Positions 27,539 through 31,122 of a stretch of DNA of 64,000 nucleotides are shown here, piece by piece. Each line of letters starts with the position of its first letter. Within the stretch, counting starts at the first letter, position 1. Source of the stretch: Elusimicrobiota bacterium (GTDB taxonomy: Bacteria > Elusimicrobiota > UBA8919). Where the stretch lies: NCBI GenBank assembly GCA_028718185.1, contig JAQUMH010000001.1, positions 405,186-469,185 of the forward strand. Reading direction: 5' to 3'. Below the pieces are notes generated by a model. The model was not told where the DNA came from. It did not search any database and was given only the letters and a program-made list of their open reading frames with translations. Made by a program: the position numbers and the translations under genes.

Positions 27539-29212
27539 TTAGTTTTCACTATTCAATATTTTTTCCAAATCCTCATCAACGGTTGAAATTGGCTGGATGT
27601 TAAATTTTTCAACCAATATTTTTAATACATTCGGAGAAATGAAAGCAGGTAGCGAAGGACCTAGTTTTATATTTTTTATACCCAAAGACAGAAGAGTTAG
27701 TAATATACATACTGCTTTTTGTTCGTACCATGAAAGTATAAATGAAAGAGGCAAATCATTTACACTGCATTTAAAATGTTCAGCTAATACTGAAGCAATT
27801 TTTATTGCAGAATATGAATCGTTACATTGACCGCAATCTAATAATCTGGGAATTCCACCTATATCGCCAAACTCTAACTTATTAAACCTGAATTTCCCAC
27901 AGGCGAGAGTAATAATAACACAATCTTTTGGAACTTTTTGAGCAAATTCCGTATAATAGTTTCTCCCCGGTTTTGCACCGTCACAACCACCGATAAGAAA
28001 AAAGTGTCTGATAGTTTTATTTTTAATTGCATATATGATTTTATCAGCAACGGATAACACTGCATTATGGGCAAAACCTACAACTATTCTATTATTATCT
28101 TTATCCTGATTAAAACCACCAAGTTGTAATGCTTTTTTAATTACTTCACTAAAATCCTTTTTGCCATTTATTGAATAGATATGCTTGACTCCGGAATAAG
28201 ACACTAAACCAGTTGAGAAAATTCTATCATTATAAGAACTTTTTGGCTTTTGGATACAATTAGTAGTCATTAAAATTGCTACAGGAAACTCATCAAATTC
28301 TTTTTGCTGGTTTTGCCACGCATTACCGAAGTGTCCTATAAGATGTTTATATTTTTTAAGAACCGGATAGCCGTGTGCAGGAAGCATTTCACCGTGTGTA
28401 TAAATATTTACTCCTTTGTTTTCGGTCTGTTTCAGCAACTCTTCTAAATCCGGTAAGTCATGTCCTGAAACAACAATCGCGGGACCTTTTTTCATTCCCA
28501 AAAACACTTCTGTCGGAATTGGATTACCAAAATATTCGGTATGTGCCTTATCCAACATCTCAAGACAAGAAAGATTGACTTTTCCAAACTCCATAATCAG
28601 CTCGATTAAATCATTACTTGACAGAGAATCGTCTACCAACGCCGCTAATCCCTTATGAAAAAAGATATTGATAGCTTTATTGCTGCTTCCCAAAATAATC
28701 GCATGGTCGGCATATGCAGCCATTCCCTTTAAACCATATAGGAGAATCTCTCTTAAACTCCTTATATCTTCATTTAAACCAGGATTAGATAAGACTCCTA
28801 CTTTTTTCCCTTGTTCAACCAGCCCATTAATAGAATTTTCCGGCGACCATTCAGCTGCTTCCGGTAACCTACCGCTGAAAGTCTTTTTATATTTTTTCTT
28901 ATAAGCACCTAAAAATAATTTTTTTATTTTTTCTTTAATATCATATGATTTAAGTATAATTTTTTGCAACTGTTCCGGATTGAAATTCACGTTTGTTACA
29001 GTTGTAAACAATCCCTCAACAATAAATTTGTCAACTTCCGCATCTTCTGCTTTCAACTCATCTGCCATTTTTCCATACACTCCAATACCTTTTAAACTAT
29101 GTAGCAAAAGGTCCTGAAGAATTGCAGTGTCCGATGTTTTACCGCAAACCCCTTGAATAGTACAACCCTTACCACCGGCGGTTTGTTCGCATTGTCTGCA
29201 AAACATATTCAT
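27539..29212 (-). CDS. hcp: Hybrid cluster protein (hydroxylamine/NO reductase)
   Basis: A 557-aa Hcp. The N-terminal C-x2-C-x8-C-x5-C motif (FCRQCEQTAGGKGC...C) binds the cubane cluster. Hybrid-cluster ligands are visible in HGEMLPAHGYP (His, Glu), TTNCIQKP, GGCDGA, LACGKFRFN, and LDCGQCNDSYSA with VDEDLE. In anaerobes Hcp reduces NO or hydroxylamine in nitrosative stress. It lies 9-15 nt after a ferredoxin-like gene, a typical electron donor pairing. Start: ATG 29212 chosen; a TTG two codons upstream is nearer the GGGAG and is possible. Confidence 0.95.
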   Translation of the reverse strand: MNMFCRQCEQTAGGKGCTIQGVCGKTSDTAILQDLLLHSLKGIGVYGKMADELKAEDAEVDKFIVEGLFTTVTNVNFNPEQLQKIILKSYDIKEKIKKLFLGAYKKKYKKTFSGRLPEAAEWSPENSINGLVEQGKKVGVLSNPGLNEDIRSLREILLYGLKGMAAYADHAIILGSSNKAINIFFHKGLAALVDDSLSSNDLIELIMEFGKVNLSCLEMLDKAHTEYFGNPIPTEVFLGMKKGPAIVVSGHDLPDLEELLKQTENKGVNIYTHGEMLPAHGYPVLKKYKHLIGHFGNAWQNQQKEFDEFPVAILMTTNCIQKPKSSYNDRIFSTGLVSYSGVKHIYSINGKKDFSEVIKKALQLGGFNQDKDNNRIVVGFAHNAVLSVADKIIYAIKNKTIRHFFLIGGCDGAKPGRNYYTEFAQKVPKDCVIITLACGKFRFNKLEFGDIGGIPRLLDCGQCNDSYSAIKIASVLAEHFKCSVNDLPLSFILSWYEQKAVCILLTLLSLGIKNIKLGPSLPAFISPNVLKILVEKFNIQPISTVDEDLEKILNSEN

Positions 29213-29227
29213 AAGCAAATATCTCCC

Positions 29228-30073
29228 TTATTTTTTTATTATTTGTCCTTTGATAGAAACGACGTATTCTTTTACAGCTATTTTCTTACCGGAATTTCCC
29301 AACGCTTCTTCTATAATCCGGCTGATACCAAAACAACACGGAACTTCCATATGCACTATTGTAATTGATTTAATGTTGTTAATCTTAAAAATCTCTGTAA
29401 GTTTTTCTATATATTCCTGTAATGTTTTATCTAGCTTCGGACAAAATATTATTAACACTTTGTCTTTAAGAAACTTGCTGTGAAAATTGGCATATGAAAA
29501 AGGCACACAATCTGCAGTTATTAAAAGATTGGCATTTTTAAGATAAGGTGCATTTGGATTCAACAGTTGAAGCTGTACTGGCCAGTTTTTTAGTTCAGAA
29601 TCTAAAGAAATATTTTTATTGTTCTTTCCGGTTTTCTTTATGTTTGTATCTTTTCTAAAATCCACTGATTTTGAACCGGGACAACTGCACTCTGGTTTAT
29701 CCATATTATCACTATTTATATCCGGTATTTTAATGTTTTTTTCTTTAAGGATATTTTCTGCTTCAGCTAAATACTTAATTTGCGAATGTTCCTTAAGATG
29801 TTTTAAATGTGCTTTTATAAGATTATCGCCTCCTTTGATTATATTTTCCATAACCTTCTTCTCGTTATAATTTTCCGTTTCCCGCTCTTCTATAGTAATG
29901 GCTTCTTGGGGACAATTACCAATACAAGCACCTAAACCGTCACACAATAAGTCGCCAACCAACTTTGCTTTACCATCAACAATTTGTATTGCGCCCTCAG
30001 GACAACCGGTAACACATAGTCCACACCCGTTACACCTCTTTTCATCTATACAAATAATTTTTCTTATGGCCAT
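29228..30073 (-). CDS. Dicluster ferredoxin-domain protein paired with Hcp
   Basis: A 281-aa protein. The first 60 residues hold two [4Fe-4S] motifs: C-x2-C-x2-C-x3-C as CNGCGLCVTGCPEGA and CDGLGACIGNCPQEA. The second part (about 150-281) has a Cys pair in VEVPCCFG-like sequence (MEVPCCFGISRI) and LITADCVPFSYANF. Proteins of this layout are common beside hcp in anaerobes and are presumed electron donors. The middle (about 90-135) is charged and low in conservation. The RBS is weak. A repeat element separates it from the upstream small gene. Confidence 0.82.
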   Translation of the reverse strand: MAIRKIICIDEKRCNGCGLCVTGCPEGAIQIVDGKAKLVGDLLCDGLGACIGNCPQEAITIEERETENYNEKKVMENIIKGGDNLIKAHLKHLKEHSQIKYLAEAENILKEKNIKIPDINSDNMDKPECSCPGSKSVDFRKDTNIKKTGKNNKNISLDSELKNWPVQLQLLNPNAPYLKNANLLITADCVPFSYANFHSKFLKDKVLIIFCPKLDKTLQEYIEKLTEIFKINNIKSITIVHMEVPCCFGISRIIEEALGNSGKKIAVKEYVVSIKGQIIKK

Positions 30074-30112
30074 AATCTTTACTCTAATTTATAATGGGAT
30101 CCCTTTTAGCAG

Positions 30113-30243
30113 GTCATTGCGAGCCTGCCTGACGGTAGGCAGGTGACAGCGAAGTCGAAGATCCCATTCATGGGGCAATCTCATAAAATGAGCCAGCCAA
30201 AACCGGGATTGCCACGAGCCGACGAATCGGCTCTCGCAACGAC
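30113..30243. repeat. ATTGCGAG inverted-repeat element, 131 bp
   Basis: Ends GTCATTGCGAG (30113-30123) and CTCGCAACGAC (30233-30243). Inside is a second hairpin, CCTGCCT-GACGGT-AGGCAGG (about 30124-30143), the same palindrome type found inside cusB at 46205. It fills most of the 30074-30277 gap. Confidence 0.7.
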
Positions 30244-30277
30244 ACGACATAAAAGGTTTTTCAACAATATTATAATA

Positions 30278-30580
30278 CTACTTTTCTATTCTATAATCGC
30301 CGTTATGTCTATCCCTTAATTCGCCGAGTTTACTTTTATTCCAGTTTTCTATTCTTGAAAAATACCCGACTATCCTGGTAATATGTTCAACATTCTTACC
30401 TTGAGTAACTTGCTTATCAAGCATTGCCCATTCATTACTCTCTATTGCTTTCTGAGTGAAATGTGCAACAGTATCCAGCCATTGGCATCCGACAAAATAC
30501 CCGGGTTTTCCTTCATGTTCCCCTTCAGACCAGTCATAACCTTTCTCAACACAAGTGTTAATAAAATTTACTATCTCCAT
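30278..30580 (-). CDS. Stand-alone NrdD C-terminal-like small protein
   Basis: A 100-aa protein resembling the C-terminal end of anaerobic ribonucleotide reductase: TRIVGYFSRIENWNKSKLGE followed by LRDRHNGDYRI. In class III RNR the R-x-x-G-Y segment carries the glycyl radical; here RIVGY keeps the Gly and Tyr but lacks the adjacent Cys. The first 50 residues (YDWSEGEHEGKPGYFVGCQW) are not NrdD-like. It could be a spare-part glycyl-radical subunit or an unrelated reuse of the fold. GGGGAGGTGATAA is a strong RBS. It lies between the Rrf2 regulator and the ferredoxin/Hcp genes. Confidence 0.6.
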   Translation of the reverse strand: MEIVNFINTCVEKGYDWSEGEHEGKPGYFVGCQWLDTVAHFTQKAIESNEWAMLDKQVTQGKNVEHITRIVGYFSRIENWNKSKLGELRDRHNGDYRIEK

Positions 30581-30638
30581 ATTTTATCACCTCCCCCCTT
30601 AAAAACATAAAGAATGTGTAATGAAATAATTAAATATT

Positions 30639-31073
30639 TTATTCAATGCCTTCTTGTCTATTTTTTAACAACACATCCTTAAGCAATTTATCAATTGTGA
30701 TATTATTGAATTCTGCTAAAACTTTATTTTCCACATCTTTTATTCTCTTTCTTATGACGCAAATTGAACGATTAGGACATATGTTATTCTTAAACATGCA
30801 TTCAGAAAGTTCAATTTTGCCTTGAAACATCTTAATAAGGTCTGAAATACGAATGTCCTTTACATCAGTTTGTAGTTTAACCCCGCCACTTATTCCCTCT
30901 TTGGAAAGAATAAGGCCTTTTTTTGTCAAAGTTTGTAAAATACCCCTCATAAAATAAAGCGGAACATTTTCTTCCTTTGAAATTTCATTTGAAGACACAA
31001 ACCTGTCTCTATTTTGGGCGAGATTCATAACAGCCCTTACCGCATAGTCAGTATTTTTCTTAAAAAACTTCAT
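30639..31073 (-). CDS. Rrf2-family Fe-S regulator (NsrR/IscR-like)
   Basis: A 144-aa winged-helix regulator. The HTH is at about 25-60 (SNEISKEENVPLYFMRGILQ) and the wing contains the conserved SKEGISGGVKL. Three cysteines, Cys92, Cys99 and Cys105 (C-x6-C-x5-C), match the cluster-binding site of Rrf2 sensors. With hcp downstream, NO sensing (NsrR-like) is the likeliest role; this is inferred from context. A consensus promoter with a palindrome over its -10 lies directly upstream, suited to autoregulation. Confidence 0.88.
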   Translation of the reverse strand: MKFFKKNTDYAVRAVMNLAQNRDRFVSSNEISKEENVPLYFMRGILQTLTKKGLILSKEGISGGVKLQTDVKDIRISDLIKMFQGKIELSECMFKNNICPNRSICVIRKRIKDVENKVLAEFNNITIDKLLKDVLLKNRQEGIE

Positions 31074-31090
31074 ATTATCCCTTATCTAAG

Positions 31091-31122
31091 ACTATTATAG
31101 TATTAGTTTAGATTCTTGTCAA
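31091..31122 (-). promoter_or_regulatory. Consensus promoter and palindrome of the Rrf2/hcp locus
   Basis: On the minus strand TTGACA (31117-31122), 17-nt spacer, TATAAT (31094-31099). The 11-bp palindrome ACTAT-T-ATAGT (31091-31101) covers the -10. The remainder of 31123-31389 contains no gene I can support. Confidence 0.75.

Follow-up and report, generated by a model that had tools for sequence, protein, structure and literature searches.

Anaerobic, class III ribonucleotide reductase (RNR) is the sole source of dNTPs in many strict anaerobes, and oxygen destroys this enzyme via its glycyl radical.

The idea of a spare part for an enzyme of this kind comes from pyruvate formate-lyase (PFL). 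Only two PFL spare parts, YfiD/GrcA and phage T4 Y06I, have been validated and others have been speculated, and whether glycyl-radical enzymes besides PFL have spare parts is explicitly an open question (PMC8683613). Divided RNRs have also been described. In NrdJa/NrdJb, the split class II RNR of Pseudomonas, a large chain is accompanied by a small C-terminal chain (PMC4520616, PMC9669993) that comprises the IscU-like and zinc-finger region. In Aeromonas phage phiAS4 and Lactococcus phage 949, NrdD is encoded in separate reading frames, which represent one gene interrupted by introns, inteins, endonucleases or breakage (PMC3653736). In the non-subscription literature, we found neither a NrdD spare part nor a class III RNR that is split with its radical glycine on a separate chain.

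Here, we describe a small protein, designated the mini, that shares features with each of these systems. Like YfiD/GrcA and T4 Y06I, it is a stand-alone copy of a C-terminal radical domain with a different N-terminus, it has a phage version, and it is linked to O2 or radical damage (PMC8683613). Unlike YfiD/GrcA, its predicted target is NrdD and not PFL, its tail belongs to the NRDD family and not to PFL-type radical domains, its gene is linked to Rrf2/Hcp or superoxide reductase/rubrerythrin genes, and in some phyla it is the sole source of the radical glycine; the two proteins are not homologous outside the radical loop. The mini resembles NrdJb in being the small partner of a large chain, but it bears the radical glycine. 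It differs from the split phage nrdD genes in having its own N-terminal domain and being encoded elsewhere, often in a genome with intact nrdD or without any nrdD. The spare-part idea is already known, for PFL only; the searchable literature yielded no account of a NrdD spare part, of its becoming an obligatory subunit or of its occurrence across phages.

A stand-alone protein with a NrdD tail

The window, i.e., the whole stretch of 64,000 nucleotides that was analyzed, encodes the mini on its minus strand. The gene starts with ATG behind a strong Shine-Dalgarno sequence (GGAGGTGAT, 30586-30594), and the protein has the following parts:

30278..30580, minus strand: stand-alone NrdD-tail protein (mini), 100 aa; from translation, Pfam NRDD and homologues
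30401..30580, minus strand: N-terminal domain, residues 1-60, proposed docking domain; AlphaFold2 pLDDT about 92-95
30305..30397, minus strand: NrdD glycyl-radical tail, residues 62-92; Pfam NRDD 531-560
30365..30367, minus strand: codon of Gly72, the predicted radical glycine of R-x-V-G-Y; from its invariance and alignment to the NrdD of the same genome
30302..30352, minus strand: predicted C-terminal helix, residues 77-93, with WNKSK..GEL.DR; AlphaFold2

The original prediction, made from the nucleotide letters, was that this protein joins a tail like that of NrdD to a distinct N-terminus, and database searches bore out both parts. Residues 62-92 matched positions 531-560 of Pfam NRDD (model length 562) with an E value of 6.2e-6 and 25.6 bits, 0.6 bits below the gathering cut-off of 26.2, and the NCBIfam NrdD model TIGR02487 matched at the same place (E 4.7e-5). 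The Pfam search returned no family besides NRDD, and the NCBIfam search, with E values up to 1, returned no PFL or GrcA model. Residues 1-60 had no known match in Pfam, NCBIfam or PDB sequence searches. In a six-frame search of the genome (3.03 Mb, 96.7% complete), NRDD was located in just two places, one being a full-length NrdD (1-561) and the other the mini's tail.

The radical loop of NrdD lies in cis after a zinc ribbon (PMC4493059), whereas the mini has a different N-terminal domain that lacks the ribbon (CxxC...CxxC) and contains only C10 and C32 as cysteines. The ten-stranded catalytic barrel and finger-loop cysteines are also absent from this 100-residue protein, which did not match NRDD 1-530; judged by its sequence, the mini is not itself a NrdD enzyme. 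What it does have is the R-x-x-G-Y...WN..K..E...R motif of the NrdD C-terminal radical domain (T. maritima Gly621; PDB 8p23), and its nearest solved sequence is PDB 8p23 residues 705-735 (E 0.036). This motif is invariant in the 42 aligned family members, including Gly72 (42/42), W80, N81, S83, K84, E87 and R91, and conservation is far higher in the tail than in the N-terminus.

Gly72 (RIVGYF) aligns with the tail glycine of the NrdD encoded in the same genome. Over 29 residues, the tail of that NrdD (TRIVGYYSRIPNWNKSKIGELKDRHKGNY) shares 79% identity with the mini tail; the figure for mini residues 61-99 is 67%. The Cys normally next to the radical glycine had been noted as missing from the mini. 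We discarded this as a defect: the genome's own NrdD (TRIVGYYSRIPNWNKSK) and other NrdDs of its subgroup likewise have no Cys beside the glycine, and the caveat is therefore void for this subgroup.

Full-length homologues with 51-70% identity, including the N-terminus, were found in at least 10 other genomes; some belong to the window's own bacterial family (G001, G002 and G005; genomes are labeled G and loci L) and others to different lineages. Where dN/dS could be computed, the values were 0.06-0.25, although many pairs had saturated dS. Because of these homologues and low ratios, a chance open reading frame or pseudogene fragment could be ruled out.

Predicted structure

An AlphaFold2 model of the mini was built with 42 sequences. 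The N-terminal domain is predicted to fold as a helix, three strands and helices, and is followed by a low-confidence, unstructured loop (residues 61-75) in which Gly72 has no defined conformation. A different fold or a buried glycine had been named in advance as evidence against a NrdD-like tail; in the model, Gly72 lies in the unstructured loop and not in a buried core, and the claim stands. In NrdD, the radical glycine is buried inside the enzyme (T. maritima Gly621; PMC4493059), and the model would fit a docking domain joined to a loop whose ordering takes place only within NrdD.

Foldseek searches of the PDB and viral models gave no match to the N-terminal domain at E <= 0.001. VIA-align detected weak HicA- and dsRBD-like matches to its alpha-beta3-alpha fold, the best being HicA with a Z score of 5.7. 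With Z under 8, this likeness may be just a common small alpha-beta arrangement, and we therefore draw no functional inference from it.

The NrdD of the same genome

The genome contains a gene row nrdR-like - small redox-like protein - nrdG - nrdD. No class I or class II RNR was detected in a PF02867 search of this 96.7% complete genome, so the cell seems to rely solely on class III RNR. The situation corresponds to that of YfiD/GrcA in that a stand-alone small protein duplicates the radical domain of a co-resident full-length enzyme. It is not that of a split RNR, whose large chain lacks a catalytic segment: NrdD is intact here, which rules out that the mini replaces a lost tail in this genome.

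Linkage to stress genes

In the window, the mini is the second gene of a minus-strand cluster with the order Rrf2 regulator - mini - 4Fe-4S protein - Hcp:

30639..31073, minus strand: Rrf2-family regulator, first gene of the cluster; Pfam PF02082, E 5.5e-30
29228..30073, minus strand: 4Fe-4S ferredoxin-like protein, 281 aa; Pfam Fer4
27539..29218, minus strand: Hcp, hybrid cluster protein (hydroxylamine/nitric oxide reductase); NCBIfam
31094..31122, minus strand: promoter of the Rrf2 gene, TTGACA-17-TATAAT; likewise precedes Rrf2 in G002 and G005
31086..31111, minus strand: inverted repeat CTAAACTAATACTATAATAGTCTTAG across the -10 box; probable Rrf2 operator, a function assigned by inference

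This neighborhood agrees with the earlier suggestion of a nitrosative-stress locus. Hcp scored 832.6 bits against the NCBIfam hydroxylamine reductase model (cut-off 367), and the Rrf2 protein has three clustered Cys residues (CMFKNNICPNRSIC), like cluster-binding Rrf2 sensors. The inverted repeat pairs at 10/13 positions here, and the same motif pairs at 9/13 in G002 and 10/13 in G005; recurrence of promoter and repeat suggests that the Rrf2 operon may be autoregulated. A published reconstruction of the NO regulon does not mention nrdD or RNR (PMC1274295).

The Rrf2-mini-4Fe-4S arrangement occurs in four genomes, with Hcp in this one. The Rrf2 gene directly adjoins the mini in G002 and G005 as well, where the order of the three genes is kept; L034 has the same order with one small gene inserted, and in G001 the mini and 4Fe-4S genes are together. 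The syntenic 4Fe-4S homologues adjoining the mini in G001, G002, G005 and L034 are 42-65% identical. The approximately 150 bp between the mini and 4Fe-4S genes in the window (30104-30255, GGTCATTGCGAGCCTGCC...) resemble an inserted element; the GGTCATTGCGAGCCTGCC motif of this segment has a single occurrence in the 64,000-nt window.

Other genomes place the mini in different stress settings. In G100 and G102, desulfoferrodoxin (superoxide reductase) and rubrerythrin flank it on either side and an Rrf2 gene lies some 2 kb upstream; G100 has an intact NrdD besides. In several Planctomycetota, the mini adjoins a universal stress protein gene.

Loss of the NrdD tail and presence of the mini

In Auribacterota/UBP3 (G103-G105), the genes are arranged nrdR - tail-less nrdD - mini - nrdG, and the minis are 51-54% identical to the one studied here. 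The NrdD of these organisms (800 aa) keeps its zinc ribbon and has an unrelated C-terminal end without R-x-x-G-Y; no other NrdD was found in these genomes.

A survey of 294 Planctomycetota genomes revealed four states: an intact NrdD tail without mini, an intact tail with mini, a damaged tail with mini, and an absent tail with an unlinked mini. Fourteen genomes have an intact tail and a mini elsewhere, two of them with two minis. In the damaged state, the glycine of the cis tail is changed to D, S or N and the mini is kept (RIGDY in G443, RTDSY in G350, RSDNY in G396), or the glycine is retained with little else (RTDGY in G374). The tail is gone and an unlinked mini is present in 14 sampled genomes, plus G107. 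The zinc ribbon remains on the large chain of tail-less NrdDs. In Auribacterota and part of Planctomycetota, as in a split RNR, the segment missing from the large chain is encoded by one and the same mini family. The planctomycetotal genome G336 has a second mini (L236 4970-6990) next to ThyX and a small MazG-like protein, which could represent a nucleotide module of a prophage.

A tree computed from 58 NrdD cores with the tail left out requires at least 6 changes of tail state. The mini is present with 22 of the 24 NrdDs that lack an intact tail versus 19 of the 34 that have one (Fisher p 0.0035, uncorrected for kinship); a phylogenetically paired co-occurrence test was not significant, with too few independent pairs. 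The two exceptions without an intact tail and without a detected mini, G306 and G221, are possibly incomplete assemblies. G306 is sister to mini-bearing genomes, and its mini may therefore be just unassembled; G221 is the sole genome of its tail loss. Many genomes have an intact NrdD and no mini, and the mini is therefore not essential to NrdD as such. The tails of minis co-vary with those of their cognate NrdDs (Mantel r 0.88, p 0.0005), a correlation confounded by shared descent.

That the family replaces the tail where NrdD has lost its own, and that the mini lies within an oxidative-stress gene row in other genomes, lends strong comparative support to the initial analogy with spare parts of the YfiD/GrcA kind. 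Apart from these cases, the large Planctomycetota genomes G229 and G298 encode divergent NrdD-like proteins (L282, L283) with RIADY at the expected radical glycine, and no mini was detected there.

Minis in phages

IMG/VR was scanned twice, the second scan yielding 86 relatives of the mini. At least 65 of 80 IMG/VR phage loci have a stand-alone mini with no NrdD core within 6 kb, and no NrdD enzyme was found in the 20 first-scan contigs searched whole (up to 208 kb; these may be fragments). The phage neighbors belong to a late gene module (terminase, portal, major head and tail genes), and the L109 contig has thymidylate synthase ThyX near the mini. The G-Y pair was kept in every mini inspected, including ten phage loci that were missed by the motif filter and read by hand. 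The mini was not found in PHROGs, INPHARED or PLSDB, which cover known phage families, GenBank phages and plasmids.

The stand-alone NrdD tails of IMG/VR phages are loci L105-L125 and L304-L381. Two of three phage loci with an apparent mini and core, L319 and L324, were rejected as false positives of the core motif. The phage NrdD of L373 and L374 is encoded in an open frame of 1676 aa, roughly double the normal length, and may contain inteins.

Other divisions of NrdD

Two other families of the window's phylum have a different NrdD type, whose core ends at NRDD position 531-540. A separate protein of 59-75 aa with the tail YSRVVGYLRPVQNWNKGKKEEF is encoded about 0-150 bp downstream of the core, and its gene precedes nrdG wherever the downstream region was read. 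Both chains have a short helical-looking stretch at the cut, and, judging from the sequences, the split appears to have arisen independently, with a docking device of its own. It comprises loci L045-L068 of genomes G009-G096; the N-terminus of its tail protein differs from that of the mini, and extra unlinked tail copies occur in G013, G015, G035, G037, G048, G058 and G072. A third NrdD type, in G033 (L044 1489-3897), has a 746-aa core, a stop and a 54-codon frame with RRITGYLVGTMDKWNDAKR, apparently yet another independent split.

Proposed function and alternatives

We consider it probable that the mini acts in trans as a glycyl-radical subunit of class III RNR and, in the window, as a stress-regulated spare part. 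The trans function is argued from the comparative evidence, and repair of NrdD under stress is what we infer for this locus. NO or oxidants would be sensed by the Fe-S Rrf2 repressor, and its release under nitrosative or oxidative stress would allow expression of the mini, 4Fe-4S and Hcp genes. The N-terminal domain of the mini would then dock on NrdD with a quenched or cleaved tail, and the mini tail (Gly72, RIVGYF) would substitute for the C-terminal radical loop in the barrel. Gly72 would be charged by the radical-SAM activase NrdG, and the charged mini would activate the barrel cysteines as usual, leading to catalysis and restoring NrdD.

The mini might instead be a constitutive alternative trans subunit that competes with the cis tail, e.g., in RNR tuning or regulation, and reflect early gene splitting rather than repair. 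In one Planctomycetota clade, minis occur with intact tails alongside decayed ones, so that the mini seems to predate tail loss, and the Auribacterota mini is in a plain nrd operon and not in a stress locus. However, the neighbors of the mini in G100/G102 and in the family to which the window belongs are Hcp, or superoxide reductase and rubrerythrin, rather than nrdDG, and an Rrf2 gene precedes it; we regard this explanation as unlikely. Location in a stress locus would also suit a decoy or brake that, under NO stress, fills the NrdD barrel or NrdG and stops dNTP synthesis, as a tail mimic could block either partner. Such a role is quite improbable: lineages with a tail-less NrdD keep the mini in the nrd operon, which would be senseless for a pure inhibitor, the glycine is kept without exception among the inspected minis, and phages, which need dNTPs, carry the gene.

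A NrdD-like tail could also have been recruited to another role, such as nucleic-acid binding, since the best structural neighbors of the N-terminal domain are the HicA and dsRBD folds. These scores may reflect the common arrangement alone, though, and the stronger conservation of the tail and the tracking of NrdD tail loss by the mini make recruitment highly improbable. As for a functionless, decaying fragment of a duplicated nrdD, most of NrdD is indeed missing and the NRDD score is slightly below the gathering cut-off, but dN/dS is well below 1 in all computable pairs, the predicted N-terminal domain is distinct and folded, synteny is conserved, and the mini occurs in several phyla and in phages. 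The conservation data refute this reading, and its probability is negligible.

Returning to the mini as a trans-acting subunit, we lean toward a broader view in which widespread, mobile glycyl-radical subunits of class III RNR serve as stress-induced spare parts where NrdD is intact, become the sole source of the radical glycine after repeated tail loss, and act in phages as genes that revive or hijack host anaerobic DNA-precursor synthesis. If true, PFL would no longer be the only glycyl-radical enzyme with a spare-part system, and class III RNR would have its first natural split that puts the radical glycine on a chain of its own. The mini family offers ready test systems in its optional stress-linked, presumed obligatory, intermediate and phage versions, and may be relevant to the survival of anaerobes exposed to NO and O2 when no second RNR is present.
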